Source: Bdellovibrionales bacterium GWA1_52_35
Lineage (GTDB): Bacteria > Bdellovibrionota > UBA1018
Assembly: GCA_001769805.1 (NCBI GenBank)
Contig: MEPO01000024.1
Location: 85,161-149,160, forward strand
Reading direction: 5' to 3'
Length of the DNA: 64,000 bases
The notes under the pieces are model-generated. The model was not told where the DNA came from and did not search any database. It worked only from the letters and a program-made list of their open reading frames with translations. The translations under genes were made by a program, and so were the position numbers. This document shows, piece by piece, positions 6,552 through 39,479 of this stretch. Every line of letters starts with the position of its first letter. Position 1 is the stretch's first letter.

Positions 6552-6744
6552 TTGAACTAAGAACAGGAGCATCTTATCTGAAAAAATGACGCAGTGCAAT
6601 ATAGAACAGGGTGTCTTAAAAACAGTAATAACATCATATATATAAAAAAAATTGGAGGCCTACCCGCAACGCGATGCTGAAGTTGCCAATGAAGTGCTCC
6701 GATTATTGTTCAATCTTTGGACATGGCCGTCCGAAAAGTGAGTG

Positions 6745-21617: not shown

Positions 21618-22841
21618 ATGGGTTTACTCAAGATCCTGTGCTCAATACTCATTGTTCTAATGCTGCCCATTCTGAGCGCCTGCGGTTTGCTGGAGCGGGA
21701 TGGCCTTGTTTCAGACGGTGTCATCGCCGTCATTGATGGCCAGCTCAAGAAAGTTTCGGAGGAAGAGCAAGATAAAATCTGCGCAACCCAGTACTGTGAG
21801 CCCAATTACGTCTACACCGTGAATTTCGGTAGACGGAGAGCTGAGCCGCGGCCAGTCCTCCCTCCAGTAATCCCGGTGCCGGCTCCTGTTCCACCAACAT
21901 TCCCGACTCCGACTGTTCAACCGAGCGGAGACTCAGTGGATTACTCTAAAGCGATTCTGGGTTTGTTCGAGGCATGGAAGCTCAGCGAGGGTAGTCGCGA
22001 AATCATTGTCGCCGTCGTGGATAGTGGTGTCGCTGTCGGGCATCCTGATCTTCAGGCGAATATCTGGATGAATATGCACGAGCTCGAAGGAAAGCCCGGG
22101 CTGGATGATGACCGCAATGGGTACGTAGATGACGTTTACGGCTGGGATTACTTTCATAATCGACCGAACGCCATCGATGACAACAATCATGGAACCCATG
22201 TTGCTGGAATTATCGGAGCCATGATGAACGGTATCGGCACCATCGGTATAAGTCCCCTGGTCAAAATCATGCCTCTTAAATTTCTAGGCCCCGACGGCTC
22301 GGGCGATACTCTGGGTGCGATCAGGGCTATCGATTACGCCACTGATCACGGAGCGAAAATTATTTCGAACTCCTGGGGCGGGGGAGGATACTCGCTGTAC
22401 ATGGATCAGGCGATTCAACGAGCGATTCAGAAAGGCGTCATCGTTGTTGCTGCGGCCGGCAACAGCACGATGAATAACGATACTTTTGCATCATTTCCAG
22501 CCAATTATGCCGGCGTCATTTCCGTGGCTTCTTCTGATGAAAAGGATGGTTTGAGCAGCTTTTCAAACTATGGAGCGAGAAGTGTGGCAATTGCCGCTCC
22601 GGGAAGTCATATCTTCAGCACTGTCCTGGAAAATCGCTGGGACTACCTTTCGGGTACTTCGATGGCAGCTCCACAGGTCTCCGGCGCTTTGGCTCTGGCG
22701 ATGAGCGTAAACGCTGATCTGAGTGCCACAGATCTCAAGAAACTGCTTTGCCAGAGTTCAAAAAAAATCCTGCTCGATCAAGTGGGTTGCGGAAGAATGG
22801 ACGTTCTTGGTTTGGTGAAAGCGTCAATTGCAGGAATGTAG
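21618..22841 (+). CDS. Subtilisin-like (S8) serine protease lipoprotein
   Basis: 407 aa from ATG 21618, with GGAGG eight bases upstream (an in-frame ATG at 21603 overlaps that site). The signal peptide ends in the lipobox LSAC, with Cys22 as lipid anchor. A Pro-rich linker (about residues 78-103) leads to the S8 domain: Asp135 in VAVVDSGV, His191 in NNHGTHVAG, Asn282 in AAAGNST and Ser348 in LSGTSMAAPQVSG. All catalytic residues are present. The domain begins almost at once after the linker, so there is no large inhibitor propeptide. It sits 77 bp before the Mur-ligase-type CphA derivative and may process a substrate of this locus. Confidence 0.9.
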   Translation: MGLLKILCSILIVLMLPILSACGLLERDGLVSDGVIAVIDGQLKKVSEEEQDKICATQYCEPNYVYTVNFGRRRAEPRPVLPPVIPVPAPVPPTFPTPTVQPSGDSVDYSKAILGLFEAWKLSEGSREIIVAVVDSGVAVGHPDLQANIWMNMHELEGKPGLDDDRNGYVDDVYGWDYFHNRPNAIDDNNHGTHVAGIIGAMMNGIGTIGISPLVKIMPLKFLGPDGSGDTLGAIRAIDYATDHGAKIISNSWGGGGYSLYMDQAIQRAIQKGVIVVAAAGNSTMNNDTFASFPANYAGVISVASSDEKDGLSSFSNYGARSVAIAAPGSHIFSTVLENRWDYLSGTSMAAPQVSGALALAMSVNADLSATDLKKLLCQSSKKILLDQVGCGRMDVLGLVKASIAGM

Positions 22842-22918
22842 GCGCAGGAAAACAGGCACAGGAAAATAACCCGCGCGAGAATGATTCAGGCGTTCTTTGT
22901 GCAAGTTCTGAATTTGCG

Positions 22919-24739
22919 ATGAATTTGAGCAGAACGAAGCACTACCTGGGCGCGAATATCCATAGCAGAAGACCCCTGATCGCAGCGACGCTTCAATTGG
23001 ACGAGCCTGCGGATCACAATCCCGACCGACTACATGCGCTACGCCAGCATTACGCTGCTTTGCTTCCTATTGAAAGTAGCGCGACTGCGATTCCTCAGCT
23101 GCTTCTCGAAGTGTTGCGTCAGCTTTCGTTGAAATCCCAGGCAACATTTCTGAATGCCTGGGTCACGCCTTCAAAAAACCCGACTATTTGTAACCTTTTT
23201 GTGGAATCTCCGCATAAAAAAGCGATCGTCTTCCTGCTGAGACAGACAGTGGAGTGGTTCAGTGCGGTGAAGGCACCCGAGGAGTCCACTGTTTCAACAG
23301 CGATCGCTCAGGCGACGGCTTTGGTTCGGAGTAGTGGAATACTGGATTCAGTTCGTGCCTTGCTCGCTAGAGAAGTCCGATCCGGTTTGCCGTGGTTTGC
23401 GACGGACAATGAGGGTGGCATTCAGCTTGGGTATGGCATCAACGGAGTTCAGTTCGGTGCGAAAGCAGCGGACATTTTGCAAAAAATCAAGCAGGAACTC
23501 GAACTCAGACCGCCGGCTTCCTTTCGCATTCCCATCGTATCGATTACCGGCACGAATGGGAAAACGACCGTTACGCGAATGATCGCTCATATTCTGTCAA
23601 GCACTGGCATTTGCGTGGGTATGAGCAGCACTGACGGCATATTTGTTGATGGAATCTGCGTCAAACCCGGCGACCTGACCGGGCCGCGGTCCGCTCGAAG
23701 GATCTTGGCTGATCCTTCAGTGGAATTTGCCGTTCTCGAGACGGCGCGCGGTGGACTTATCCGCGCGGGGCTGGGCTACGATGCTGCGGATGTGGCGGTA
23801 TTGACGAATATCCAACCTGATCATTTTGGACAGGACGGTATCGACTCTCTTCAGGATTTGATTCAGGTGAAGAAAGTAGTCGCCGATCAGATTTTACCCA
23901 GTGGTTCCCTTGTGATCAATGCGGATGATGAGCAGCTCGCCAGTCTTTTTGCCCAAGAGGCATTCAGTCATGTGCGAAAGAGAATCGTTCCGTACTCAGT
24001 CAAGCCAGATCATCGCATCATCCGGCAACAGCTTCAGGCCGGGGCGCGGGCCTATTGCCTGCAAAATGGTTTTATAACAGAGCTGTTTCAGGAAAAGCGA
24101 ACAGTTCTGCTGAGAGCAGATGAAATGAATTCCTCTCTTCCGGGGCTTGCCGGCTTTCAAATAGCCAATTCACTCGCCGTGACGGCGGCTGCCCGAGCTC
24201 TCGGGTGCAGCACCGTCGAAATCGTGAGAGGTTTGCTGACTTTCAAAAACGAGAAGCATAATCCCGGCAGAATGAATCTGTTCCGTCTCAAGAGTGGACA
24301 TCTTCTTGTTGATTACGGCCATAATCCCGAAGCCATTCGCGCGATAGGTGAGTGGGCAAGCGCCCCTAATTCAAACCCCGCCTGGAATCCGAAAGATGTG
24401 ACCTGCATTCTTGGGCTTCCTGGGGATCGTACTGACTCACTCCTGCAGAGTTCAGCCAGAATGGCTGCCCGGTATTTCAGAAAAATTATTCTTCGAGAAG
24501 ATGAGGACCTGCGCGGCAGAGCACCCGGCGAGTTAGCTGAAATCATGAGGTCGGCTATTCAAACGGAATCCGGGGGGTGCCAGGTCGAAGTCATCCTCAA
24601 CGGCGCCGAGGCGCTCAGACGGGCGCTTCAGGGAATGGGATCCCGGAGTCTGACTGTTCTTTTTTACGATGAATGGGCTCCCTTTGCGGCCACCCTCAGT
24701 GAGTTCAAGGCCGCTCCGGCTGAGGAAAACCTGCGATGA
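22919..24739 (+). CDS. Cyanophycin-synthetase-like protein: N-domain plus Mur ligase, ATP-grasp domain absent
   Basis: 606 aa from ATG 22919. This start gives HYLGANIHSRRPLI, which lines up with the first strand of CphA (xxLRGPNxWSxxxxL). Residues 1-150 resemble the CphA N-domain. At 156-184 the sequence LPWFATDNEGGIQLGYG matches the segment that opens the CphA ATP-grasp domain, but it then passes straight to the Mur ligase domain: about 240 residues of ATP-grasp are missing. The Mur domain looks complete: P-loop GTNGKTT (211-217), MSSTDGIFVDG, LETARGGLIRAGLGYD, TNIQPDHFGQDGI and, later, VDYGHNPEAI. In CphA this domain adds the second amino acid (Arg) through an acyl phosphate. The gene overlaps the ABC transporter start by 4 bp. 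Confidence 0.82.
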   Translation: MNLSRTKHYLGANIHSRRPLIAATLQLDEPADHNPDRLHALRQHYAALLPIESSATAIPQLLLEVLRQLSLKSQATFLNAWVTPSKNPTICNLFVESPHKKAIVFLLRQTVEWFSAVKAPEESTVSTAIAQATALVRSSGILDSVRALLAREVRSGLPWFATDNEGGIQLGYGINGVQFGAKAADILQKIKQELELRPPASFRIPIVSITGTNGKTTVTRMIAHILSSTGICVGMSSTDGIFVDGICVKPGDLTGPRSARRILADPSVEFAVLETARGGLIRAGLGYDAADVAVLTNIQPDHFGQDGIDSLQDLIQVKKVVADQILPSGSLVINADDEQLASLFAQEAFSHVRKRIVPYSVKPDHRIIRQQLQAGARAYCLQNGFITELFQEKRTVLLRADEMNSSLPGLAGFQIANSLAVTAAARALGCSTVEIVRGLLTFKNEKHNPGRMNLFRLKSGHLLVDYGHNPEAIRAIGEWASAPNSNPAWNPKDVTCILGLPGDRTDSLLQSSARMAARYFRKIILREDEDLRGRAPGELAEIMRSAIQTESGGCQVEVILNGAEALRRALQGMGSRSLTVLFYDEWAPFAATLSEFKAAPAEENLR

Positions 24740-26475
24740 GTGAACCGGAATATACTCTCGGTAGTTCGAAGCCGATACGAATTCTTGAAAATGGCAGGTC
24801 CTGGATTCTGGTCCGACTCATTGTGAACGGTATGATTCAAGCCGGCGCAGCGATTTTCGCGTCGAGAATGATGCATTTGGCATTTGACCGGGTGATTCAC
24901 AAGAATTCCGTCCTAGATTGGGGAGTATTTGCTCAGTTCGGCCTTGGATTGACCCTTGCGGCCCTGAGTGTGGCGTGGCTTCGAATGGTCGAGAGAATCG
25001 ACGGAGAACGCATGGGCCAGGATTTTGCCAACCAGCTCCGGATCCGGCTTTTTGATCATATCAGCATCACTTCAGTGCGATCGTTTCAGCGCCGAAGCAA
25101 GGGCAGCGTTTTGTTGCGGTTCATCGGAGATTTGAAGGTGCTCAGACAATGGATCAGCATGGGATTGGCTCGCCTGATCGTTGCCACCGCAAGTACGACA
25201 ATGGCAATTGGCGGCCTGGCTTTCATGAATGTCGCCATGGCGATCTCAGCATCTGTTGTGATCGTCATGGGCTGTCTGCTTGGATTCGGCTGGGGCAAGC
25301 ACCTTCACGGGGCAATCAAAGAGTCGCGACGAAGGCAGTCTATTTTCGCCGCTAATGTGAATGAGAAGATTTCATCCATCGCCGTGGTCCAGGCTTTCGG
25401 GCAGTCCGGTCGTGAGCGTGAAAGAATCGCCAGGCAAGGCGAAAAGCTGAAAGATGCGATGGTCATGCAAGCACGGGCGAGTGCGCAGCTCAGATCGATT
25501 GGCGATGCAACCGCTTCTCTTGCGACCGCTCTCGTTTTGCTGGTCGGAGCCCGGGAGGTTCAAGCCGGGCGGGCTACCGCCGGAACCGTTGTAGCTGCTA
25601 TGTCGCTCGTGGGATTGGTAACGCCCCTGCTCCGGGATCTGAGTTCTGCGTTTGTCCTTTGGCACGGTGCCAGTGTCTCACTTGGAAAAATCATGGAATT
25701 CATAAATACCTCGCGGAAAATCGTAGAATCGCCCTCCGCGCCGGATCTCTCCCCGGGTTCAGGAGAGGTCGAGTTTCGCTCGATCGTCCTCGGCGAAATA
25801 CTGCGCGGAGTCTCCGCCTTTGCTCATCCTGGGACCCGTATTGCCGTTATCGGTCCCAACGGTTCCGGAAAATCAACCCTTCTGAGCTTAACGGCGCGGC
25901 TTTGTGATCCCGATCAAGGCGAGATTCTGCTGGATGGCCAGAAGCTCTCGGAACACAGTCTTGCATCCCTCAGGCACAGGCTGGGAATGGTGAGTCCGGA
26001 TCTTCCGCTCCTGCGTGGGCCCATCGAAAAAAACCTGCGCTACCGATGGCCTGAGGCCCCGGAAGAGGAGCTTGAGCGCGTGCTGAAACTCTGCGGCGTG
26101 GACGAAATACTGAAAGGTCTTTCAGAGGGTATCAGAACGAAAATCACCGAAGGGGGCGCAAGCTTATCTCTCGGTCAAAGACAGCGGATTTCGCTTGCGC
26201 GCGCTCTGGTGGGATCGCCCTCACTGCTTTTACTGGACGAAGCGGATGCAAATCTGGACCCGAGGTCCGCCGCGGTTCTGGAGAAAGTGATGGCGAGCTA
26301 CTCCGGGACCGTGCTCATGGTTTCGCATAACTTCGATTTCGTCAGTACCGCCGATACCATCTGGTACATGGAGGGAGGGACGATTGTGGAGATCGGAACT
26401 CCGCAGATAGTATTCGCTGCGAATGGTCCCGCAGCGCGTTTTTTCAGAATGCGCGAAGCGTCTTCTGCTGGATAG
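24736..26475 (+). CDS. ABC exporter (fused membrane and ATPase domains)
   Basis: 579 aa. A six-helix type membrane domain occupies about residues 20-315, then an ATPase domain with Walker A GPNGSGKST (from residue 373), signature LSLGQRQR, Walker B LLLLDEADANLD and the switch His in MVSHNFDF. This is the half-transporter plan of lipid, peptide and drug exporters, which act as homodimers. Its ATG overlaps the stop of the Mur-type CphA derivative, so the exporter and ligase are made together; this suggests that it exports the ligase product. No peptidase C39 domain is present. The 3' end overlaps the convergent gene by 32 bp. Confidence 0.9.
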   Translation: MSEPEYTLGSSKPIRILENGRSWILVRLIVNGMIQAGAAIFASRMMHLAFDRVIHKNSVLDWGVFAQFGLGLTLAALSVAWLRMVERIDGERMGQDFANQLRIRLFDHISITSVRSFQRRSKGSVLLRFIGDLKVLRQWISMGLARLIVATASTTMAIGGLAFMNVAMAISASVVIVMGCLLGFGWGKHLHGAIKESRRRQSIFAANVNEKISSIAVVQAFGQSGRERERIARQGEKLKDAMVMQARASAQLRSIGDATASLATALVLLVGAREVQAGRATAGTVVAAMSLVGLVTPLLRDLSSAFVLWHGASVSLGKIMEFINTSRKIVESPSAPDLSPGSGEVEFRSIVLGEILRGVSAFAHPGTRIAVIGPNGSGKSTLLSLTARLCDPDQGEILLDGQKLSEHSLASLRHRLGMVSPDLPLLRGPIEKNLRYRWPEAPEEELERVLKLCGVDEILKGLSEGIRTKITEGGASLSLGQRQRISLARALVGSPSLLLLDEADANLDPRSAAVLEKVMASYSGTVLMVSHNFDFVSTADTIWYMEGGTIVEIGTPQIVFAANGPAARFFRMREASSAG

Positions 26476-28048
26476 CGCTGATTCTGCAAGCAGCGATGAC
26501 TGCGATGTGATTGGACGGCTCCGGACTGGAGTGCTCCGGCAAATCACAGATCACGGATTGCTGTCCAAGCCCAATCGTTTCGAGGAGCTGTCCGTTTTTG
26601 CGGAAATAGGCGGTTCCGCCCTGGTTCACGTGCTCCTGACATGAGTGCGAATTTGTTGAGAACAGGACAAGCCGCTGAGCTGATAATTTGCTGGAGCCCA
26701 GGACTTTCAAGAGCGGGTCGCAATCTGCATTGACAAGAAGCTTTCCAGAGGGCGTCAATCGGGCCGCAATTTCTGCGATGCTGCTTTCAGTATTGTTGAC
26801 CACCGCAACACTGAGCTCCAGGAACGGGTGAATGACAGGGCTGAGGGAATCAAAGACGGCGGCATCGACTGCCGGATCGCCCAGTACAAGGGAAATCGGA
26901 TCGGCCTTTTCCAGGGACGCGAGTCGAACTGAATCGACAATTACTTCTGTCTCATTTGCGCTACCGACACGAAGTCCGCTTTTGGCCAGCTCCAAAGCAA
27001 TTCCGTGCGCCACCGCCGCAGAGCCATAGACCCCAAAACACGGAATCCGGCCGTCTTCTCTGCCCGGATAAAGATATTCCAGGATCGCCGCTCCCGCGTC
27101 GCGAGCCTTTCCATGCCGGGGATAATGGTGAACCCGAATACCCGGACCGGCGTTGATCTCGATGATCCCGCCTTTCTGACCCCAAGGTGAACTCGTGGCG
27201 TTCTCGAGAATAAGATCGATTCCGCAAAGGGGCAGTCCTATGATTCTCGCCGCTCGTTCGCAAAGATTTCGCACGTCGGGATGCAATTCGTCGGTGATAT
27301 CGTCGCAGCATCCCCCTTGGGACAGGTTGGCGTTCCCTCGAAGAAAAACGGTTGTTCCTGATGCGGGGATATTGTTCAAATTGTGGCCGCCGCTTGCGAT
27401 ATAAGATGTCGCAACGCGATCAAGCCGGATCCGGGTCATCGACTTTTCGCGACCGACTCCTCGCGCGGGATTTTCGTTCTCGATCGCCACCAATTCTGAA
27501 ATCGTGTGAATTCCGTCTCCAGTGACATTCGCCGGTATGCGCTCCGCGGCTGCAAAAACTTTCCCGTTCACGACAAGAACCCGGAAATCGCGTCCGGGCA
27601 GCTGCTCTTCAAGCAGTACCGCTCGTGAGTAGCGCGCCGCCTGCCGGTAAGCTTCGATGATTTCATCCGCCGTTTTCAAGCCAACTGAAACGCCATTTCC
27701 TTTGTGGCCGTCCAGCGGTTTTACAACAACGGGACTTCGGATTTTAGTCAGCGCGTTCCTGGCTGCCTCCTCGCTGCGCACCACGCAACCGGCCGGAACC
27801 GGTATTCCGCCGGCTTTCAGAAGCATTTTCGTGACGTACTTATCCTGGGCGAGATCGACTGAAAGGTCGCTTTCGAGGCAGGTAGTCATCGCACGAATCC
27901 AACGACGGCCCGATCCATGACCGAGCTGAAGCAGATCGAGGTCTTTTCTGTACGCCCAGGGGATTCCGCGCCGCTCTGCAGCCTCGACCACCATTCGGGG
28001 GCTCGGCGCTATTTCTTCGGCTCTTCGGGCCCAGATATCTTCGTTCAT
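26444..28048 (-). CDS. Cyanophycin-synthetase-like ATP-grasp protein with a P-loop-less Mur-like domain
   Basis: 534 aa. It lacks most of the CphA N-domain and starts near GIPWAYRKDLDLLQLGHG (28-45), the entry to the ATP-grasp domain. The ATP-grasp core is well kept: SPVVVKPLDGHKGNGV (105-120), LLEEQLPGRDFRVLVVNG, IPANVTGDGIHTI and IIEINAGPGIRVHHYP (295-310). From about 335 a Mur-like domain begins (IPCFGV), but YGSAAVAHG replaces the GTNGKTT P-loop and the domain is about 200 residues, half the normal size. CphA2 proteins likewise have a non-functional Mur domain. The ATG overlaps the stop of the DUF11-like gene by 4 bp, which makes the order caspase-like, DUF11-like, ATP-grasp one operon. 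Confidence 0.82.
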   Translation of the reverse strand: MNEDIWARRAEEIAPSPRMVVEAAERRGIPWAYRKDLDLLQLGHGSGRRWIRAMTTCLESDLSVDLAQDKYVTKMLLKAGGIPVPAGCVVRSEEAARNALTKIRSPVVVKPLDGHKGNGVSVGLKTADEIIEAYRQAARYSRAVLLEEQLPGRDFRVLVVNGKVFAAAERIPANVTGDGIHTISELVAIENENPARGVGREKSMTRIRLDRVATSYIASGGHNLNNIPASGTTVFLRGNANLSQGGCCDDITDELHPDVRNLCERAARIIGLPLCGIDLILENATSSPWGQKGGIIEINAGPGIRVHHYPRHGKARDAGAAILEYLYPGREDGRIPCFGVYGSAAVAHGIALELAKSGLRVGSANETEVIVDSVRLASLEKADPISLVLGDPAVDAAVFDSLSPVIHPFLELSVAVVNNTESSIAEIAARLTPSGKLLVNADCDPLLKVLGSSKLSAQRLVLFSTNSHSCQEHVNQGGTAYFRKNGQLLETIGLGQQSVICDLPEHSSPEPSNHIAVIAACRISAIQQKTLRAF

Positions 28049-28539
28049 GGAATAATTTCGATTTTGAAGTTCTTGCAGGTTATTCCAGCCAGAAGACTCG
28101 GATGAACGACGCAGACGCGATTCAAGCCGATTCGTCCGGAGTTGCCACGGATGTACATTCCCACATCAATTAGCAATACCTCTCCGGGAGCGAATTTGGC
28201 ATTGCTCCAGGACAGCTCGGTGCCCGCAGGTGCGGGATTCTTTTGGACGAGCGTCGGAATGGGATCGGACCGTCGGAATTTCGTGCGTTTAGGGAGGATA
28301 TTCCTGATGGTCGCACTCGACAGATTGCAGGAACTCTTGTTTTCGATTCTCAGCAGGAGAGTGGTAGCAGAGCCCAAGCGGAGCACACGCGGCCCGATTT
28401 GCCTGATGCTGAGGGGACATGGATCAGGCGGTGGCGGTGAAACTGGCGCTTTGGGTGCTGCCAAACCGGTTATACTGAACAAAAATACGGGAACCGCCAA
28501 GATCCCGTAAAATTTCAAAACCGTGAACAGAGAGTTCAT
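28045..28539 (-). CDS. Secreted DUF11-like protein (copy 1)
   Basis: 164 aa with signal peptide (hydrophobic about residues 7-27, ending TGLAAP) and AAGGAGG five bases before the ATG. After a Pro-rich stretch, one beta-sandwich domain follows: LGSATTLLLRIENKSSCNLS, LPKRTKFRRSDPIP and ELSWSNAKFAPGEVLLIDVG. This is the layout of DUF11/CARDB-type 'uncoupled repeat' domains. Three spaced cysteines are shared with the second copy at 37178-37657, as is the C-terminus 'C-x2-FKI-x2-xP'. It lies between the caspase-like gene and the ATP-grasp gene. Confidence 0.7.
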   Translation of the reverse strand: MNSLFTVLKFYGILAVPVFLFSITGLAAPKAPVSPPPPDPCPLSIRQIGPRVLRLGSATTLLLRIENKSSCNLSSATIRNILPKRTKFRRSDPIPTLVQKNPAPAGTELSWSNAKFAPGEVLLIDVGMYIRGNSGRIGLNRVCVVHPSLLAGITCKNFKIEIIP

Positions 28540-28548
28540 GGAACCTCC

Positions 28549-29547: not shown

Positions 29548-29677
29548 CAAACCTCCATGATTCACCGGGCGCAGAAGACCAGATGATGCGTTTGAAATGC
29601 AATATGCGCAGCGGCTTTTTGGCCGGTATGTGGGTTGCAATCGCTCGAGGCTTGCGAACTGATCGAGAGATACAACT

Positions 29678-30763: not shown

Positions 30764-30770
30764 GTCCCTC

Positions 30771-31619: not shown

Positions 31620-32646
31620 ATACGCCTTCACCCATCTTACTCTTTGTCATGCAGTTCGAGAAAGAGTGAGCACAGCCCGGAAGGCCGTGGAATTCATGAA
31701 GAGAGTTGATTCCAATGCCCTGTGCGGCAGCCGACATTGCGTCAATCCAGTTCTGCCCGCGTTCAAAACGGTTGTAGCCCTGCTGCAAGTTGATGGAGTC
31801 GGTTGAATAAAGTGAAGAGTCCTGTTGGTTATCCAGATCGCCAACAAAAACCGCACCGGGGACTCTGAGATAACGGTTCGGATCGAAGACCACATTCTGG
31901 AGGTCGCCGGAATTCAGCGTACCTTGCGGATATCGTATTTTTGAGTCAGGGAAGGTGTACCAGCCGGCAGCGCCGACAGCCAGACGCGCGACATCGTCCG
32001 GGTGCGCCATCGCGTAACGGTGGGAGAACTGCCCGCCTCCTGAGTATCCGAAGAGGTAAAATTTCCCGCTGCTCGCGCCGCTGATTTCCCGCACTTCGTG
32101 AACGATGCTTTTGAGTGCCAAATCCGCCCGAGCACCGTCTCTGCCGAGTCTTTGATAATCATCGTAGCGCGTCTGCGGAAAATGGGGCGCGATCAGTATT
32201 ACGCGGTACTTCTCCGCAAAGGACTTGTAGAGATTGGCATGTTCGACATAGTTTTCTGAAATTCCATGAACCGTGACAAAGATCGGTGCATTCTGCGAAC
32301 CCGCCGTCGGTAAATAGAGTAAGTATTCCTGTAGTACGTCCACTCGGAGTTTGAGTTTGTGAAGAACCCCAAGTGAGAGGCCGGGAGGCGCAGTGGGGGT
32401 TGGGGTCGGTGTCGGAGTGACAGTGGGTTTGGGGGTCGAGGTCGGTGTCGGAGTGATAGTGGGTTTGGGGGTCGAGGTCGGCGTTGGTGTGACAGTGGGC
32501 TTGGGGTTCGAAGTCGGCGCAGGCGTATCGGTTGGGTTTGTTGTGACATCGGCCGGCAAAACTGGATCGGTTCCGTTGCAGGCAGTCAAGATGAGCGGCT
32601 GCAGTATGAGCAGAATAGCCGCTAACGGCAATTTGCTGAAAATCAT
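31597..32646 (-). CDS. Alpha/beta hydrolase lipoprotein with Thr-Pro linker
   Basis: 349 aa. The signal peptide ends LILTAC, a lipobox with Cys23. A linker of about 60 residues built from repeated TPTPTSTPKPT units spaces the enzyme from the membrane. The catalytic domain parallels the protein encoded at 30771-31619 throughout: PIFVTVHGISENYVEH, FGYSGGGQFSHR (nucleophile Ser), FVGDLDN and CAHSFSN (His). So one paralogue is cytoplasmic and one is anchored outside. The two genes meet tail to tail, as expected from an inverted duplication. Confidence 0.82.
   Translation of the reverse strand: MIFSKLPLAAILLILQPLILTACNGTDPVLPADVTTNPTDTPAPTSNPKPTVTPTPTSTPKPTITPTPTSTPKPTVTPTPTPTPTAPPGLSLGVLHKLKLRVDVLQEYLLYLPTAGSQNAPIFVTVHGISENYVEHANLYKSFAEKYRVILIAPHFPQTRYDDYQRLGRDGARADLALKSIVHEVREISGASSGKFYLFGYSGGGQFSHRYAMAHPDDVARLAVGAAGWYTFPDSKIRYPQGTLNSGDLQNVVFDPNRYLRVPGAVFVGDLDNQQDSSLYSTDSINLQQGYNRFERGQNWIDAMSAAAQGIGINSLHEFHGLPGCAHSFSNCMTKSKMGEGVFKWFFGY
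32405..32512. repeat. Three tandem 36-bp units coding for the Thr-Pro linker
   Basis: Units at 32405-32440, 32441-32476 and 32477-32512. The first two differ at one base; the third has more changes. Each codes for 12 residues of the Thr/Pro linker of the lipoprotein hydrolase. The repeat number could change by slippage and alter the reach of the enzyme. Confidence 0.8.
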
Positions 32647-32735
32647 TGTCGTGTGTCCCTCTGCGTGAAAATACGAGAAGGGCGCGCGAAAGTAGTGGCA
32701 GTCAGCTATTATTTATTTTTAGAGTGGGCAGAGCC

Positions 32736-33995
32736 CTACTTCGAACATTCCGGGTTTGTGGTCAAAGGGGAGTCCGGCGAGGCCCGGTTCCTGTCTCCCA
32801 GAATGCTCTCGAGCAGTATTCTGGCATCATGTACCTGGTTGGACGATTCTCCTTGGGGATGCCGCTCCAGCGCTTCTGCCGTCAAATACCAGCCTTCAGC
32901 GGATCTTTCCCTTCGCATCAGGACCGGAATGTAGTTGACGCCGTTCACAAGTATTTCACCGTTGGGTCGCTTTGTCAGTCCGACGTTCAGAATGACTGTT
33001 GCGCGTTTCGGAAGTTCGCGGTGGCCACTGACAAAATTTCCCAGAGAATAGAAGACGAATGTTTCCCGTCCATCACGTGTGATCACTTTCTCCCAAGGCT
33101 GAATCGTATGTGGATGAGCGCCCATGACAACGAGCGCGCCGGCTTCGAGAAAGCGCCGGGAGATCTCGATCTGCTTCGGTTTGGGTACATGCATGTACTG
33201 GCCGCCCCAGTGTGGAGTGATGATAACGGCATCGGCCATCCCCCGGCGGACAATACGCCGAATCAGTTTTTCGATCTCAACTGTATCGTTATGGCAGTTC
33301 AGGATTTGATCTTTGGGGTAAGCCTTGTCAGGATTGATTCTTCTGGTGCAGGAAATCCAGGCCAGTCTGATTCCGCGAGTTTCAGTGATCGTGAACCATT
33401 CCCGATTGCCTTCGGAAGCCTTCCGGGTTCCGGCAAAAGGAAGCCCGGCAGCCCTGAGTGCATCAATTGTCCTTTCGAGACCCAAGGTGCCCCGGTCCAT
33501 GGCATGGTTATTGGCGGTTGATACTATATCGAAACCACTGGCGACGAGATCATCCAGCAGATACCGGTGGTAATTCAGCCGTGGCAGGCCCGAGTACACA
33601 ATATCATCGAAAACAAACCCAGGGTCCCGGACCTTGTGCTTGTCTCGATCAATACCCCAGGCAACGGTTCCCTCGAGGTTCGCGTAAGTGACGTCGGCTC
33701 TGGCCAGCAAGTCCTGGATGCGTGCCCAGAGACTCGTGAAACGTGCCGGATCGCGTACGGCCTGAATCTGCGGGTCGTCATGCAGGAGAACGTCGCCTAC
33801 CGCCGCGATCGTCATCTTTTGTCCCTGGGCGCAGGCTTTCGAAAACCGGAGGCCTTGTCTGGACTGATTAAGAATGTCTTCAGGGGAGGGCAGGTCTGGC
33901 TGAGATCCCCACACGGTCTGAGATGAGGTACACAAAGCCAGGGCTGCAAAACCCAGAACTTGAATTGAAAATAGAGTTCTTTCGAAGTGCAACAT
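32736..33995 (-). CDS. CapA-like metallophosphatase-fold protein
   Basis: 419 aa with AAGGAGG ten bases before the ATG and a signal peptide (hydrophobic about residues 10-25, ending QTVWG). The fold is that of CapA/PgsA: MTIAAVGDVLLHD, YANLEGTVAWG, STANNHAMDRG, ITPHWGGQYMHV and GAHPHTIQPWE, with the metal-site Asp, Asn and His residues kept. CapA is needed in Bacillus for export and chain formation of the gamma-glutamate polymer capsule. No CapB or CapC lies here; the CphA-derived ligases and the ABC exporter of this region could supply synthesis and export instead. Likely periplasmic. Confidence 0.85.
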   Translation of the reverse strand: MLHFERTLFSIQVLGFAALALCTSSQTVWGSQPDLPSPEDILNQSRQGLRFSKACAQGQKMTIAAVGDVLLHDDPQIQAVRDPARFTSLWARIQDLLARADVTYANLEGTVAWGIDRDKHKVRDPGFVFDDIVYSGLPRLNYHRYLLDDLVASGFDIVSTANNHAMDRGTLGLERTIDALRAAGLPFAGTRKASEGNREWFTITETRGIRLAWISCTRRINPDKAYPKDQILNCHNDTVEIEKLIRRIVRRGMADAVIITPHWGGQYMHVPKPKQIEISRRFLEAGALVVMGAHPHTIQPWEKVITRDGRETFVFYSLGNFVSGHRELPKRATVILNVGLTKRPNGEILVNGVNYIPVLMRRERSAEGWYLTAEALERHPQGESSNQVHDARILLESILGDRNRASPDSPLTTNPECSK

Positions 33996-34020
33996 CCTTG
34001 CTCCTCCTTGGTTTAGTCGC

Positions 34021-34827
34021 TCAGTTCAGATGGGACTCTTCAATCTCCAGATTCTGCAGCTGCTTATTCAATTTCCCGCGATCAGCCAGAACCGGAAAAC
34101 GCTCCCTCAGACGAGAGGTTTCTTCCAGGTCCAGGTCCACCGTAATCACAGCCTCATCGCTGCGGAAATCGTTCAGCTGCCGTCCAGCTGGATCGAAGAT
34201 CGCACTATCGCCGGAATAGCCGAGGCCATTGCCGGATCCGACGCGGTTCACGCCAATCACATAAGTTTGGGTGTCCAGGGCGCGTGCTCTGAGAAGAGTC
34301 TTCCACTGCTCTCTTCGGGCAGAAGGCCAATTGGCGATAACGACAAAAGCGCCTGTGACTCGTTCCGCCGCTTTCAGGAAAAGTTCGCTGAAACGAAGGT
34401 CGTAGCAAATGACAGGCGCCAGGCTGTGCTTGCCTTCTGAAACCAGCAACAGCTTCTTTCCGGGCCGATACACTTCGTGCTCGCCGGCAAACGAGAAGAG
34501 GTTCACCTTCTGATATACACCGACCAGTAACCCGTCTCGCATAGCCCAGCATTCGTTGTAAGGACCTTCCGGACGCCGGACGGCAGCTCCCGCAAGCACG
34601 AGGGCCTTTCGCCCGCGGGTAAGCGCGAGCAGCTCTGTAAGCAGCGGTGAATCTGGAGGGAGTGCTGCTTCGTCAGGTTTCATTGAAAATCCGGTCAGAC
34701 ACATCTCCGGAAAAATCACGAGCTCAGCGCCGAGATCGTTTGTTTCCTGCAACATCCGTTTGATCTTCAGCAGGTTGGTCGGAGCGTTCTGCCAAGCGAT
34801 ATCCATCTGGCAGAGGGTCACCTTCAT
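34021..34827 (-). CDS. Carbon-nitrogen hydrolase, probable omega-amidase
   Basis: 268 aa. The nitrilase-superfamily triad is complete: Glu41 in LVIFPEMCLTGF, Lys107 in VYQKVNLFSFAGEH and Cys141 in VICYDLRFSELF. The sequence is closest in style to YafV/NIT2 omega-amidases, which hydrolyse 2-oxoglutaramate or 2-oxosuccinamate to the keto acid and ammonia. Its ATG overlaps the stop of the upstream aminotransferase (4 bp), matching the known pairing of a glutamine transaminase with an omega-amidase, as in methionine salvage. No signal peptide. Confidence 0.85.
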   Translation of the reverse strand: MKVTLCQMDIAWQNAPTNLLKIKRMLQETNDLGAELVIFPEMCLTGFSMKPDEAALPPDSPLLTELLALTRGRKALVLAGAAVRRPEGPYNECWAMRDGLLVGVYQKVNLFSFAGEHEVYRPGKKLLLVSEGKHSLAPVICYDLRFSELFLKAAERVTGAFVVIANWPSARREQWKTLLRARALDTQTYVIGVNRVGSGNGLGYSGDSAIFDPAGRQLNDFRSDEAVITVDLDLEETSRLRERFPVLADRGKLNKQLQNLEIEESHLN

Positions 34828-36020
34828 TTTCGCAGCACCGCCGAAAGTTCCTTCGCCCCTTCTCTGACCATCGCAGTTCCACAGCTGTAAGCAAAGCGTA
34901 TGGCATGTTCGCAGTGCTGACCGAAGCTATCACCAGGCGCGCTCCCGATGCCCGCTTCCGCAAGCTTGCTGGAGAGCGCATCGGCGTCCCTGACCCCGAG
35001 TCTGTGGTACAGTGAGGGATCGATTTTGCACCAGAGATAAAAGGCTCCTTGCGGCTTGAAAATATCCAGACCGGGAATTCCGGTCAGCGCCTGAATCATG
35101 ATCTCGCGGCGCGTCCTGTACTCCTTGAGCATGCCATCCAGGTGCGATCGGTCCGTGCGCAAAGCATCGATTGCAGCCCATTGGGCTATGCTGTTCACGC
35201 CGTTGATCGTGCATCTCAAGAGTTTCGAGATCCGCTCTCGGACAAGCTGCTCGCGGGCAACGATGTATCCAACACGCAAGCCGCTCATGGCAGAGGACTT
35301 GGAGAAGGAGAAGATGCTGATGATTCGCTCCTGGAATTTTTTATCAAACCCCTCCTGCTCCGCGAGCGCCGCCAGCGAGTGGTGTTTCGCATCGTAGACG
35401 ATGTCTTCGTAGGCCTCGTCCGTCACTATATGAAGGTCGTGTTTCTCGGCGGTTTTAAGGATACCCACCAAGGTCTCTCTGGGGAGAACCGCGCCGGTTG
35501 GATTATGGGGGCTATTGACGAAAATGGCTTTGGTCTTCGTGCTGATCTTTGCCTCAATCGCTTCCGGCCTGTAAAGATATCCGTCTTCATGCTGGAGAAT
35601 GACCGGAACGGGTCTGGCTTCAGCCAGACGAATATTTTCGACCGCCTCAGTCCACATGGGGTCCGGAACAATCACCTCGTCTCCTGGTTCCAGAAGGCAG
35701 TGCCAGAGAACGTAAAGGGCATGCATCGCTCCGTTGGTGATGAAAATAGAATCCGCAGAGGGCAGATGAATTCCGTTCCGGGTTTCGAGCTTCAGCTTCA
35801 ATTCCTTTTTGAGTTCTGGAATCCCGTCATTCGGAATGTAATGGGTCTTTCCTTCCTGCGCGGCCCTGGTGATCCCCTGAAGAACCTGCTCGGAGACGCT
35901 GAAACTTGGATCTCCGGACTCAAATCGAAAAACCTTTTTTCCCGTCGCCTGGCTTTTTAAAAGCCTTTCGCGAATCTGAACTATTTTGCCGAACGATATT
36001 CCATCAAGCCGTGAACTCAT
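34824..36020 (-). CDS. PLP-dependent class I aminotransferase
   Basis: 398 aa from ATG 36018-36020 with GGAGG about nine bases upstream; a frame start at 36047 would include that site in the coding part. Fold-type I features: FESGDPSF, NSPHNPTG (Asn173), DEAYEDIVYD (Asp201, Tyr204) and the PLP lysine Lys241 in SFSKSSAMSGLRVGY. The length is normal. It is translationally coupled to the omega-amidase, so an amide donor such as glutamine is likely, with methionine or an aromatic amino acid as the product. It could feed amino acids to the ligases of this region, but a general metabolic role is equally possible. Confidence 0.88.
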   Translation of the reverse strand: MSSRLDGISFGKIVQIRERLLKSQATGKKVFRFESGDPSFSVSEQVLQGITRAAQEGKTHYIPNDGIPELKKELKLKLETRNGIHLPSADSIFITNGAMHALYVLWHCLLEPGDEVIVPDPMWTEAVENIRLAEARPVPVILQHEDGYLYRPEAIEAKISTKTKAIFVNSPHNPTGAVLPRETLVGILKTAEKHDLHIVTDEAYEDIVYDAKHHSLAALAEQEGFDKKFQERIISIFSFSKSSAMSGLRVGYIVAREQLVRERISKLLRCTINGVNSIAQWAAIDALRTDRSHLDGMLKEYRTRREIMIQALTGIPGLDIFKPQGAFYLWCKIDPSLYHRLGVRDADALSSKLAEAGIGSAPGDSFGQHCEHAIRFAYSCGTAMVREGAKELSAVLRK

Positions 36021-36073
36021 TATCTGAAATCCTCCAAAGGCGAACATACGTTTTTTTCGCAGCGAGGCACTAG

Positions 36074-36102
36074 CTTAAAAATTTGAACCCCGAATATATA
36101 AT
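36074..36102 (+). promoter_or_regulatory. Possible promoter for the second caspase-like gene
   Basis: A perfect TATAAT at 36097-36102 with a poor -35 match (CTTAAA, 36074-36079) 17 bp before it, in the 180-bp A/T-rich gap between the divergent aminotransferase and caspase-like genes. Confidence 0.3.
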
Positions 36103-36200
36103 ATTTTTTCCTGAAGGGCGTGCGGGGCGTCAATGGTGCTCGTCTCATTTTGATTGTAAACACTCCAGGTCATTTGCTTAGAGTTCTCCGCGGAGGACCG

Positions 36201-37196
36201 ATGAAATACCTACGTTTCGTATTTACTCTTGGAGTCAGCTCGCTGTTGCTCGCAACATTCGCATTTGCAGCAGGTGTGAGGGAACTGGACTTTCTGGGGC
36301 CTTTGGATGTTCAGCCCTCGTCCTTTATTCCGGAAGCACCGGTCTATACCGATGAACCAGCGGACCCGGTTCATGCTGATCTCCGGCCTTTTTATAAAGA
36401 GTTCGAAAGAGATGGACTCGTGACGATTTACCTTGGATATGGAATCGGGACATATTATCCGGCTCGAGGCTCGCAGATTTTTGAAATGCTCAAGCTCCTG
36501 GCCCTGCACTATGAACTCCCTTTGGTCGATTGGAATCTCAGCGGGGATGGCAGCCATCTTTCTTTTCTGAATTCAAAGCGGGGTATTCGTTATTCCATTA
36601 CGATCGGGTACGAGCGAAATGAATTTGCACGCGCGTTTTCCGAGTACGAGATTGTCATGTACCACGGTCACTCCCGTTATGGACAAGGGCCGGCTTTTCA
36701 ACATTACCAGAATTATTACCGGATGGGCCGGGGCTTTCCCACAATCGAGGTGGACACACGTAACAACTACTTTAAAGACGAGCCTATTTTAAAAACCGAT
36801 TTGTACCCAATTCGCTGGGTGCGTTTTGGGACCAGGTGGCTTCCGTTTCAATACCGGGGGCAGAAGAACGGAAAATCGGAACTCCCGGATACGTCTTATA
36901 CGAAAAACGTTCCGGGTCTTGATGTGGATTGGACCCGGACGCGTTTTCTGCCCGGCCGGCAACTCTTTTACTTTTATTCCTGCACCAACAAGCAGTACTG
37001 GCGCGAATCCATACGCGACCGTTTCCCGAGTCTGAGCCATAAGTTCGTTTTCGGAACTTACAAAATCAACCGCGGAAGAACCGAGCCCGATGTCTTGATG
37101 ATTGTCTCCCTTCTGAGAGGGACGACGCAAAGCTCGAAGATTCTCGATTTTCTAAACACGACAAAGGACTGCGATCAATGTTTCACTACCTATTGA
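36201..37196 (+). CDS. Secreted protein with a possible caspase-like His/Cys dyad (copy 2)
   Basis: 331 aa from ATG 36201 with GGAGG four bases upstream. Signal peptide about residues 1-23 (FTLGVSSLLLATFAFA). It parallels the product of 28549-29547 throughout: SQIFEMLKLL, EIVMYHGHSRYGQGPAF (His155/His157), IEVDTRNNYF, TSYTKNVPGLD, FYFYSCTNKQYW (Cys261) and the ending TTKDCDQCF. The two motifs fit a cysteine peptidase of the caspase fold class, which I infer and cannot confirm. It overlaps the following DUF11-like gene by 19 bp. Confidence 0.55.
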   Translation: MKYLRFVFTLGVSSLLLATFAFAAGVRELDFLGPLDVQPSSFIPEAPVYTDEPADPVHADLRPFYKEFERDGLVTIYLGYGIGTYYPARGSQIFEMLKLLALHYELPLVDWNLSGDGSHLSFLNSKRGIRYSITIGYERNEFARAFSEYEIVMYHGHSRYGQGPAFQHYQNYYRMGRGFPTIEVDTRNNYFKDEPILKTDLYPIRWVRFGTRWLPFQYRGQKNGKSELPDTSYTKNVPGLDVDWTRTRFLPGRQLFYFYSCTNKQYWRESIRDRFPSLSHKFVFGTYKINRGRTEPDVLMIVSLLRGTTQSSKILDFLNTTKDCDQCFTTY

Positions 37197-37657
37197 CGTT
37201 GGTTTTCGCCATCTCTATCGGTAAAGTCTGGGCCGGAACTTCCGGCGCAATCAGCATTCCGGATCCAAAGACGGGGGAGTGGTGTCTTTTTGGCGTGGAG
37301 CATCTCGGACCCAGGAAGTTGTCAGTGGGCGAAACCGGAAAGTACGTGGTCCGCCTGGAGAACAGAAGCGCCTGCACTTTGAAGCATCTCCGGATGCTGG
37401 ACAAGTTCCCGAAAGATACTGACTTCAAGAGAGCTGATCCGCAGCCCTCAAAAATCCGAAACCGCCGTTTTCCTCACGGTCCGATCCTGTATTGGAATCA
37501 GCTGAAGTCAAGGCCCGGAGATATCAAGACCTTTGAAGTTGAGCTCCAGGTGACGGGAGCGCGCAATCAAATCTTAAAAAACAGGATCTGCCTTTCACTT
37601 CCCCGTGACGCGGAAGAGGTGTATTGCCACTATTTCAAAATCCGTGTACTGCCCTGA
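37178..37657 (+). CDS. Secreted DUF11-like protein (copy 2)
   Basis: 159 aa, with a signal peptide (LLTLVFAISIGKVWA). The single beta-sandwich domain has VGETGKYVVRLENRSACTLK, FPKDTDFKRADPQPS and LYWNQLKSRPGDIKTFEVEL, the same plan as the product of 28045-28539, including the C-terminal 'YCHYFKIRVLP'. The gene starts inside the end of the caspase-like gene (19-bp overlap). Its 3' end overlaps the convergent ATP-grasp gene by 23 bp, so here the third member of the trio is on the opposite strand. Confidence 0.68.
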   Translation: MFHYLLTLVFAISIGKVWAGTSGAISIPDPKTGEWCLFGVEHLGPRKLSVGETGKYVVRLENRSACTLKHLRMLDKFPKDTDFKRADPQPSKIRNRRFPHGPILYWNQLKSRPGDIKTFEVELQVTGARNQILKNRICLSLPRDAEEVYCHYFKIRVLP

Positions 37658-39479
37658 GTATATCTGGCACAGCCACGGTGCTGACCTGTTCTTTTGAGAT
37701 CATTAGAATGTTTTTGTTCGGGTAGTCGCGTTTACACGATTCCAGGAAATCCAAGCTTTGGAATGCCTCGAAATTGACTGCGACAATTCCCCCGTCACGA
37801 ACTTTCTGAAAAATCAGCCGGAGTGCTGGTTCCTGCTCGCACTTGGATTCCATCAGGATAGCCAGATCACAATGATCATAAGGAAGACCGTGGGCCAGAA
37901 TCTCCGGAACTCCGAGTTGAATCACTGCGGCTTCGTGGATGGGATCCATGAGAATCGCTGCTGCTGAACTGTTTCCGTCCTGTGCCTGCCTGGCCAAACC
38001 CACGCGTATTCCCAATGAGCGCAGATTTTCTGAAATCGCCTGTGCCACGGGAAAATGCGCGTAGCCGCCGAGAATGGAAATAATGGGAATTCCGAAGGGA
38101 CTGTCAGCCGGGAAGAGCAGGTCTAAGATATTTTCCGCGACATTTCGAGCTTTCCCGTAGGTGGGATGGAGATGGGGCTGAAGCCCGGGGCGGTGATTCA
38201 CTTCAAGGATCCAGCAACGCCCACCAGGTTCAGAAATATCCGGGGCGATCATGTCAACACCGCAGATATCCAGTCCGATCACGCGTGCAGCTTTTTCACA
38301 GATTTCCCGGAAGTGGGGGTGAACTTCCTCCGTGACGTCTCGTGAGGTACCTCCGGCGGAACCGTTAGCGGATTTTCGGAGGAAGACCTTTTGACCATAT
38401 TCGGGTACATCACCCGGATCCCATCCTTGAGTTTCAAGAAAGCGAATTTCCTCCTGTTCGAATCTGATCCGGCACCAACATGAAGTATGTCCGTCTCCTC
38501 TCATGGGATTCTGATTTTCGATTTCCACAAGTTCGGCCACCGAGTGTATGCCGTTACCGGTCACGTGCGCTGGTTCACGCTCAACTGCGGCTGTGAACTT
38601 CCCACCGATCACAAGGACACGAAAGTCCCGCCCTTCAAGGTACTCCTCGACGACGACGTGTTCAGAATTTGCGGCTGCTGCCTGATATGCGTGCTTCACC
38701 GTCTCTTCGGAAGACAGGCTGAGCGCGACATTCTGCCCCTGTTTCCCGTTGGAAGGTTTTACCGCCACCGGTCCGCCGATCTTCCGGAATACTTCCAGAG
38801 CTCGCTCCTCAGTTTGAACTGACCACCCTCGCGGAACTGGGAGTGAGGCTTTCTGGAGTAGTTTCTTGGTCAGGTGTTTCTGACTGGCGATTTCAGCTGC
38901 CAGGAGTGATGTCCTGTCCGTCCAGGAAGACTGAAGGACTCGTCGGTTCTTTCCGTAGCCCAGCTGAATGGAGTTGGGCCGTGGCAAGCGAGTCCAGGGA
39001 ATTCCTCTTTTTATCGCGGCTTGAATGATGGCGATCGTATTGAAACTCATCCCGGTTTTTTTCAGGATTTGATTGGCCTCAAGAAGCGCCGGGCTCAGCG
39101 GGTAGTTCTGACCCTCGACTGCGGCCTTGACCAGATTGAAGGCGGTTTGAAGAAGAAAGCTCGCAGCTCTTTTAGAAAAGCAGGGCAGTGCGATGAAATC
39201 AGCAGGCTTGCGAGCAGGTGCTCCGCATTGCAGGGGGAGTGTTAAAGCGAGCCCCGCTATTTGGTTCAGCTGCAGAGCAACACTCTGGACTACCTCGATC
39301 AGCGTTGCGTCAGGCTTCAACTGGAGCCCTGCAAGTGCATTGGACAAAATCGGCAATGCCTGCGGAAAAGTCAAAATAGGTTGGTGGCCTGCTGTACCGG
39401 GTTCCAGGCGCATCACGAGGGCCGCTTCAGGGTGGTAGAGGCTCGGGCCGCGAAATGCCTTGAAATCAATGATTTTCAT
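37635..39479 (-). CDS. Cyanophycin-synthetase-like protein: N-domain and ATP-grasp, P-loop-less Mur-like domain
   Basis: 614 aa from ATG 39477-39479, which gives MKIIDFKAFRGPSLYHPEA, a close match to the start of CphA (MKI-x4-LRGPN-x-WS). An in-frame GTG at 39533, just after the upstream gene's stop, would add 18 residues. Residues 1-155 are the N-domain. The ATP-grasp domain has GIPWTRLPRPNSIQLGYGKN (159-178), GPVAVKPSNGKQGQNV (236-251), VVEEYLEGRDFRVLVIGG, EPAHVTGNGIHSV and WILEVNHRPGLQPHLHP (423-439). The Mur-like domain starts IPIISI, but GGYAHFPVA (471-479) replaces the P-loop, and the rest is short. It should therefore catalyse only the ATP-grasp addition, as in CphA2. Confidence 0.82.
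   Translation of the reverse strand: MKIIDFKAFRGPSLYHPEAALVMRLEPGTAGHQPILTFPQALPILSNALAGLQLKPDATLIEVVQSVALQLNQIAGLALTLPLQCGAPARKPADFIALPCFSKRAASFLLQTAFNLVKAAVEGQNYPLSPALLEANQILKKTGMSFNTIAIIQAAIKRGIPWTRLPRPNSIQLGYGKNRRVLQSSWTDRTSLLAAEIASQKHLTKKLLQKASLPVPRGWSVQTEERALEVFRKIGGPVAVKPSNGKQGQNVALSLSSEETVKHAYQAAAANSEHVVVEEYLEGRDFRVLVIGGKFTAAVEREPAHVTGNGIHSVAELVEIENQNPMRGDGHTSCWCRIRFEQEEIRFLETQGWDPGDVPEYGQKVFLRKSANGSAGGTSRDVTEEVHPHFREICEKAARVIGLDICGVDMIAPDISEPGGRCWILEVNHRPGLQPHLHPTYGKARNVAENILDLLFPADSPFGIPIISILGGYAHFPVAQAISENLRSLGIRVGLARQAQDGNSSAAAILMDPIHEAAVIQLGVPEILAHGLPYDHCDLAILMESKCEQEPALRLIFQKVRDGGIVAVNFEAFQSLDFLESCKRDYPNKNILMISKEQVSTVAVPDILRAVHGF

Follow-up and report, generated by a model that had tools for sequence, protein, structure and literature searches.

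Cyanophycin synthetase (CphA) is a single protein whose ATP-grasp and Mur parts add aspartate and arginine in alternation. What is to be made of a locus in which these parts are encoded as separate proteins, set among genes for an exporter and for apparently secreted products? The question is raised by a 64,000-nucleotide stretch of DNA (the window) from the draft genome of Bdellovibrionales bacterium GWA1_52_35 (contig MEPO01000024.1, our G000:C24:85161-149160; 3.73 Mb in 35 contigs, 92.6% complete). The window encodes three descendants of CphA1: one that has lost the ATP-grasp (G) domain and keeps the Mur (M) domain, and two that keep G together with a remnant of M. An earlier reading of this DNA, made from the sequence alone (the sequence-only reading), had named the open reading frames (ORFs) and given three of them CphA ancestry; the ORFs are present and profile matches confirm the ancestry. 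To judge by domain content, the activities of CphA are placed here on separate chains, with G carried twice, and we tentatively favour, with confidence a little short of even, a divided and re-purposed CphA pathway that makes an exported isopeptide with an aspartate backbone.

Evidence for the division came firstly from the domains themselves. The Mur-type protein matches TIGR02068 over positions 475-861 (E 3.7e-135), with Mur_ligase_M and Mur_ligase_C above cut-off, and in front of its full M domain stand a weak N-domain-like part and a short piece of the beginning of G, all else of G being gone. The first part of the protein gives a weak but collinear alignment with the N domain and G start of the CphA of another phylum genome, G014 (20.6% identity over 177 query residues, E 5.9e-07). 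The stretch before the M P-loop scores 73 against full-length CphA1s, and 80 in the ortholog from Bdellovibrionales bacterium GWB1_55_8 (G019), a metagenome-assembled genome from a different genus in that family; it is best placed at the G start, where none of 100 shuffles scores as high in either genome. The alignment made for the HxxEH motif had set this stretch of both Mur proteins away from the G start, but the shuffle test supports the G start. The GWB1_55_8 ortholog has no N-domain part.

The other two proteins, ATPg1 (37635-39479, or to 39533) and ATPg2 (534 residues), match the PRK14016 profile over positions 1-573 (E 6.9e-140) and 155-574 (E 6.7e-129) respectively. In each, a full G domain leads into an M remnant from which P-loop and lid are missing, and the loss of these two elements is described, in the available part of PMC9427784, for CphA2, the enzyme that joins beta-Asp-Arg dipeptides. 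Since G is intact and M is reduced as reported for CphA2, a description as two CphA2-like ligases fits better than the ATP-grasp fragments of the sequence-only reading: the G domains it saw are intact, but they are not bare, the M remnant being attached. Its placing of the CphA activities on separate chains agrees with the domain matches, for none of the three window proteins carries G and M on one chain, as CphA1 does.

Most of the motifs of G and M are kept. In CphA1 numbering (after the available part of PMC9427784) K220, K261, R309, R323, N394, S396, D431 and E450, which make up the ATP, metal, chain-end and Asp sites, are present in all five split or fused G domains, a set from which a Deinococcus taeanensis row was omitted. 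Both split M domains retain GTNGKTT, ETARGG, DH, DYGHNP, GDR and RGR; the M-domain P-loop, E558 and D585-H586 of CphA1 are present in the Mur protein only. His267 is replaced, by Q in the ATPg1 pair and K in the ATPg2 pair, as against H in 22 and Q in two of 24 full-length CphA1s.

Might the three proteins be relics of a lost cyanophycin metabolism? The sequence-only reading had named an intact cphA in the same genome, with these three as decayed copies, as one of two findings that would count against it. Strong CphA matches in the window genome are exactly three, all at this locus, the next match scoring 68.9 bits; a genome search found no intact CphA, although a missed copy is possible in a draft of this completeness. 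The only CphA matches in GWB1_55_8 at E 1e-30 are its own three split pieces. Decay would account for the domain losses, for the lack of an S51 peptidase, for the replacement of His267 and for M remnants that, in 50-residue blocks, are only 21-55% identical between the two genomes. The G cores, however, are 54-80% and the M domain 38-88% identical on the same measure (the ATPg1 N domain is 37-46%), and the ORFs are intact in two genera with catalytic motifs and gene order kept; we consider decay very improbable. The three CphA-derived proteins are 56-59% identical between the genomes and the ABC (ATP-binding cassette), DUF1611-like and hydrolase proteins 66-76%. Non-synonymous divergence (dN) is 0.17-0.46 across 11 gene pairs, and synonymous divergence (dS) is at least 2.0 in eight of these and not estimable in three.

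The origins of the pieces were followed in trees of M and of G domains, mostly quick ones, with groups named after viewing and cyanobacterial CphA2 outside them. The split Mur pair falls inside Bdellovibrionota CphA1, beside that of genome G275, with 31 and with 28 M domains (SH-like approximate likelihood ratio test, SH-aLRT, 95 and 91); both trees were built without the contig-cut piece of genome G103 (L076), and the smaller also without MurE and two cphA'-type rows. ATPg2 groups instead with the CphA1s of G014 and other Bdellovibrionota (96/91). The placement of ATPg1 is unsettled: in a second G tree, from which the long rows of Microvirga and Ngg had been removed, it adjoins the ATPg2/G014 clade (SH-aLRT 79), and a single ATPg1 plus ATPg2 clade is not rejected (p 0.062 and 0.084). 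Descent from one cut gene is opposed by approximately unbiased tests of single clades (p-AU 0.0004 for ATPg2 with G275, 0.024 for Mur with G014), which are weak given the quick trees and the groups named afterwards. M and G are thus nearest to different CphA1 relatives; division of a single gene is an improbable source for the three pieces, which seem to stem from different CphA1 copies. Match scores hint that the CphA2-like ligases may have an origin separate from cyanobacterial CphA2: among PDB matches to ATPg1 and ATPg2, the 7ta5 and 8fxh chains, presumably CphA2, score below CphA1 chains.

G-less CphA-like Mur ligases are also found elsewhere. One with HxxEH adjoins cyanophycinase and isoaspartyl peptidase genes on the Legionella adelaidensis plasmid NZ_LR134428.1 (L089:11575-15219); those of Shinella (L098:4140-5945) and Ruegeria (L099:4590-6326) directly follow a full cphA and a cyanophycinase gene. 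The Deinococcus taeanensis plasmid NZ_CP083456.1 (L090:10726-13242) carries a CphA-like protein, annotated as a Mur ligase, in which the M motifs are intact and G is apparently degenerate. A remnant of the G start is recognizable in Legionella and Shinella (none of 100 shuffles as high), and in Ruegeria seven of 100 shuffles reach its score. The topology test rejects one clade of the split Mur pair and the Legionella ligase (p-AU 9e-5), and G has accordingly been lost more than once; the Shinella and Ruegeria ligases form a deep separate branch of the M tree.

One alternative is that the split pieces assemble and make (beta-Asp-Arg)n as an ordinary store. In its favour, the Asp-recognition residues N394, S396 and R323 survive along with every M motif, and the G-less ligases of Legionella, Shinella and Ruegeria do sit beside cyanophycinase or full cphA. 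A comparison with the rest of the phylum points the other way. A search of 368 phylum genomes with the Mur protein (E 1e-40) finds matches in 23. Besides the split pair these comprise 21 genomes, of which 20 have open CphA1 frames of 875-975 residues, while in one (G103) the frame is cut by the end of its contig. All 21 have an S51 peptidase, within 2 kb of cphA in 20 by coordinates, whereas neither split genome has one (Fisher p 0.004), though S51 is likewise absent from 31 of 55 relatives that lack CphA. The N-domain HxxEH site, which makes primers according to the available part of PMC9262961, is found in every one of 18 full-length CphA1s checked from the phylum. The six split pieces all lack it, only three of them (ATPg1 of both genomes and the window Mur protein) having an N-domain part; the check covered HxxEH and not the Cys of the motif, and G103 lay outside the count. 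The company kept by the ligases differs too. The genes conserved around them encode an exporter and proteins that are apparently secreted. The ABC, DUF1611-like, hydrolase, caspase-like and DUF11-like proteins have no match (E 1e-6) in any of 19 phylum CphA1 neighbourhoods (6-20 kb, some ending at contig ends; all of the 21 but G198 and G239), where the amidase was matched weakly (24.6%, L078) and generic kinases or regulators were matched as well. With no cyanophycinase, no primer site and His267 replaced, ordinary cyanophycin storage looks unlikely.

A critical issue is which of the neighbouring genes belong to the system. On contig 51 of GWB1_55_8 (L037) the genes for Mur, ABC, ATPg2, the DUF11-like, caspase-like and DUF1611-like proteins and hydrolases 1 and 2 retain the order and orientation of the window, the caspase-like gene being present as two tandem copies. 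An eight-gene order kept across genera is more than chance. With 29 window proteins as queries, the rest match the 19.9 kb contig 51 stretch only as paralogs of cluster genes. Both genomes have two paralogous modules, each comprising a CphA2-like ligase, a DUF11-like protein and a putative caspase-like protein, and within each module the genes overlap or stand a few bases apart. The modules differ in orientation, and in GWB1_55_8 module 1 (ATPg1, DUF11-like, caspase-like) lies on contig 72 (L038).

The sequence-only reading had drawn its circle of neighbours wider, and had looked to their conservation elsewhere as its test. The eight genes and module 1 are indeed conserved in GWB1_55_8; the aminotransferase, omega-amidase and S8 protease of the window have no match in the two cluster stretches there, and CapA has a 72% ortholog that is unlinked to the cluster and has near it, of these three, S8-like sequence only. 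On account of conservation in the GWB1_55_8 stretches we take the core to be Mur, ABC, both modules, the DUF1611-like protein and the two hydrolases. CapA is a probable member; membership is doubtful for the remaining neighbours, and in the aminotransferase, the amidase and the S8 protease we probably see bystanders. As to the names first given to these genes, S8, ABC, CapA, CN_hydrolase and aminotransferase are borne out by family matches, and the two hydrolases by weak ones, but the supposed cysteine peptidases have no Pfam match and DUF1611 is marginal. The P-loop protein so labelled has a MobB match just under cut-off and matches DUF1611 (PF07755) at E 0.051, with 13.4 of the 25 bits needed; two of its homologs carry the DUF1611 annotation in public records, and at E 1e-15 the gene is found, among the phylum genomes, only in the two split ones. 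The DUF11-like protein of module 2 has no Pfam match, and the module 1 relatives fall under the DUF11 cut-off (best E 0.0017); the signal peptide was called by eye. A ribosomally synthesized and post-translationally modified peptide (RiPP) with a precursor gene was set aside, for gaps between cluster genes are at most 150 bases and leave little room for one (short ORFs were not searched for).

Table 1. Genes of the locus, in window positions
Feature	Positions	Strand	Remarks
S8 subtilase, apparent lipoprotein	21618..22841	+	S8 peptidase E 1e-58; membership doubtful
CphA-derived Mur-type ligase	22919..24739	+	ORF open from TTG 22748; ortholog L037:13993-15417 (57.6%) in GWB1_55_8
ABC exporter half-transporter (transmembrane and nucleotide-binding domains)	24736..26475	+	4-base overlap with Mur gene; 78% ortholog, same place in L037
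ATPg2, CphA2-like ligase, no N domain	26444..28048	-	ortholog L037:10735-12306 (57%)
Small putative secreted DUF11-like protein, module 2	28045..28539	-	4-base overlap with ATPg2; alignment with module 1 relatives
Putative secreted caspase-like (clan CD-like) protein, module 2	28549..29565	-	His164/Cys268
DUF1611-like P-loop protein (GTSMNSGKT)	29678..30763	+	sequence searches
Alpha/beta hydrolase 1 (GYSGGG)	30771..31619	+	just 3' of DUF1611-like gene; ATG start set by eye
Alpha/beta hydrolase 2, apparent lipoprotein	31597..32646	-	paralog of hydrolase 1; lipobox by eye
CapA/PGA_cap-like protein, apparent signal peptide	32736..33995	-	PGA_cap/CapA E 1.7e-58; membership likely, not certain
Omega-amidase-like and aminotransferase pair	34021..36047	-	CN_hydrolase 1.6e-35, aminotransferase 1.7e-60; probably ordinary neighbours
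Putative secreted caspase-like protein, module 1	36198..37196	+	paralog of 28549-29565; ortholog L038:12691-13779
Small putative secreted DUF11-like protein, module 1	37178..37657	+	ortholog L038:12224-12718
ATPg1, CphA2-like ligase, N domain without HxxEH	37635..39479	-	ORF open from GTG 39533; ortholog L038:10353-12251 (54%)

Other genes of the window deserve mention. Directly 5' of ATPg1 and on the same strand is a 1324-residue protein with bacterial Ig-like domains (39537-43511), which has no match in the GWB1_55_8 stretch around ATPg1. A 1756-residue ORF with an apparent signal peptide occupies 6742-12012, and a single 1231-residue ORF at 52295-55990, apparently two fused ABC transporter halves, is preceded by genes resembling sensor kinases and response regulators (all by eye).

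The tight coupling of each ligase to its own DUF11-like and caspase-like genes, in both genomes and despite the orientations of the modules, admits a different explanation: that each ATP-grasp protein adds residues to the secreted partner of its own module, in the manner of RimK or tyrosine ligases, the exporter being unrelated. A Cys-x-x-Cys-Phe-Thr tail, common to all five caspase-like proteins, also speaks for it. The partners, however, have apparent signal peptides (by eye; both window caspase-like proteins among them) and so would leave the cytoplasm, and a third caspase-like paralog of the window genome (G000:C9:161739-162677, L060) bears the same tail with no CphA ligase within its 3.9 kb locus. 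Modification of a protein partner is, in our estimation, improbable.

Some evidence bears on what the caspase-like proteins are. His164 and Cys268 are found in all 18 aligned rows, the His partly by selection, as rows were picked by the motif GH[ST]R; the rows are two from the window, three from GWB1_55_8, the third copy of the window genome and 12 of 13 weak relatives (E 2e-6 to 6e-4), with L055 (GHAR) left out and L049 partial. AlphaFold2 models reached a predicted local distance difference test score (pLDDT) of 45 with five sequences and 75 with 18 (predicted template modelling score, pTM, 0.74). In the model the His follows the third core strand (E158-162) and the Cys the fourth (E261-266), and in clan CD peptidases the His likewise comes after strand 3 and the Cys after strand 4. 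Caspase-4 stands at Foldseek ranks 3 and 10 (E 0.013 and 0.034); the proteins match no Pfam family, and a PDB search with their profile was empty. The label of caspase-like peptidase is a working hypothesis. The weak relatives are in 13 other phylum genomes; a scan of genome contigs with the profile returned two loci, both in GWB1_55_8, and no new lineage, and the protein has no match among plasmids.

Further light is shed by plasmids. When 72,556 were searched with the DUF1611-like protein, homologs were found in eight. In Sulfitobacter, Paracoccus albus, P. liaowanqingii and two Tritonibacter mobilis records an alpha/beta hydrolase gene is followed by a DUF1611-like gene and then an ABC transporter gene, with S8 genes near the trio in four of these five Rhodobacterales records; P. 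marcusii has the hydrolase and no ABC match beside its DUF1611-like gene. The transporters are only 26-32% identical to that of the window, and the linkage of the trio therefore rests on position, not on proven orthology. The fetched stretches of the five records contain no CphA matches, as would be expected if the locus held independent systems side by side, a DUF1611/hydrolase/ABC trio and the CphA-derived ligase modules; the presence of module 1 on another contig in GWB1_55_8 is of the same tendency. Yet the interleaved order (Mur, ABC, ATPg2 module, DUF1611, hydrolases) is kept in two genera, and Microvirga ossetica joins a CphA2-like ligase to just such a neighbourhood: there, the neighbours of the hydrolase and DUF1611-like genes include an ABC-HlyD pair and a protein of 1004 residues in which an N-G-M remnant of CphA2-like layout is fused to CapA. 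We think two or more unconnected systems rather unlikely. The ligase-CapA fusion also supports CapA as a partner. An alignment of the CphA2-like proteins gave no confirmed match in viral contigs.

Two other records contain DUF1611-like genes. On the Priestia megaterium plasmid NZ_CP085446.1 (L086:7758-15520) a distant homolog (24%) has genes for thiamine pyrophosphate enzymes on one side and an ATP-grasp gene on the other. Another ATP-grasp gene and one of the phosphoenolpyruvate mutase family are nearby; this is perhaps a phosphonopeptide cluster. An unverified fecal phage scaffold (MT835675.1, L102:10001-12671) has a DUF1611-like gene and then an ABC gene, paired as on the Rhodobacterales plasmids.

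How might a divided CphA pathway work? For substrate, order of steps, export, location and accessory roles we infer the following from gene content, as the simplest account that agrees with it. The Mur-type protein would carry out the M reaction, ATP-dependent formation of an amide bond to the side chain of aspartate, and the two CphA2-like proteins the G reaction, in which units are linked through the backbone carboxylate at the expense of ATP. The M protein may first make a beta-aspartyl dipeptide or may decorate a growing chain; the G proteins would then join the units made by M, possibly pre-formed beta-aspartyl dipeptides, as cyanobacterial CphA2 joins beta-Asp-Arg. A slow primer-free activity, for instance making beta-Asp-Arg, is proposed for CphA1s in the available part of PMC9262961, and a route by way of the dipeptide therefore makes chemical sense. 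The presence of a second G enzyme suggests that there are two kinds of joint, or else two donors. Within the cell, the DUF1611-like P-loop enzyme and an alpha/beta hydrolase would act on the product to modify it; the ABC exporter would then carry it outside, where it would be processed or anchored by the lipoprotein hydrolase and by the caspase-like, DUF11-like and CapA-like proteins, which are apparently secreted. Of the exported isopeptide or poly-amino acid that the sequence-only reading had proposed, an exported product other than a store is plausible and its chemistry is conjecture.

Several observations weigh against a re-purposed, exporting pathway. The gene set is known from only two Bdellovibrionota genomes, both drafts, in one of which CapA, the aminotransferase, the amidase and S8 are unlinked. 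The exporter is a generic half-transporter; one caspase-like copy stands alone in the genome, and the caspase-like model has no Foldseek match at E <= 0.001, so that its assignment is weak. Replacement of His267, important in CphA1, could mean altered or lost activity. HxxEH is also missing from full-length CphA1s of Deinococcus deserti and Chryseobacterium. Of 58 relatives no more than 25 have S51, 24 of them among the 55 that carry no piece of CphA, and its absence from the split genomes is therefore not rare in itself; the family, moreover, includes non-cyanophycinases, with matches in 10 of 14 well-known control genomes. The split genomes thus resemble genomes without cyanophycin breakdown and are not uniquely odd, while the contrast with CphA1 carriers stands.

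Known systems offer partial parallels. All three window proteins descend from CphA1 and mostly keep its G and M motifs, but they are separate chains with two G proteins, no HxxEH and His267 replaced, and no S51 was found. ATPg1 (an N-G-M remnant) and ATPg2 resemble CphA2 in lacking the M P-loop and lid while G is intact; unlike CphA2 they are two copies accompanied by a separate M protein, with no cyanophycinase to supply dipeptides, and ATPg2 branches inside Bdellovibrionota CphA1. The G-less ligases of Shinella, Ruegeria and Legionella have M without G, as does the window Mur protein, but all adjoin cyanophycin genes and that of Legionella is of separate origin. In the PgsB/CapB-CapA systems for poly-gamma-glutamate capsules, a Mur-superfamily ligase and a CapA-like protein serve an exported poly-amino acid. 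The window too has a Mur-superfamily ligase and a CapA-like protein; its ligases, however, descend from CphA rather than from CapB, it has an ABC exporter, and Pfam matches of the cluster genes include neither CapB nor CapC. The available part of PMC11915815, which also names CapB, describes the assembly of pseudomurein peptides for an outside structure by separate Mur and ATP-grasp ligases, a division like that seen here but in different families and organisms. A split CphA or such a cluster goes unreported in the titles and abstract beginnings of the open-licence PMC literature searched, and the available parts of PMC10206079, PMC9427784, PMC9262961 and PMC11915815 make no mention of either.

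It is possible, though doubtful, that this is the first non-storage pathway to have arisen from CphA, with three trans-acting descendants, separately evolved CphA2-like ligases, an aspartate isopeptide with two kinds of joint, dedicated ABC export and caspase-like maturation specific to each ligase, together with a related alphaproteobacterial export set in which one ligase is fused to CapA. Studies of CphA have dealt with a storage enzyme made as one chain; in this locus its reactions appear on separate chains, and there are signs that they serve something other than storage. If the divided pathway is real, it would provide a natural trans system for isopeptide polymers and a second origin of CphA2-like polymerases, it would link the chemistry of CphA to CapA and export, and the function of the DUF1611-like/hydrolase/ABC set would become testable.

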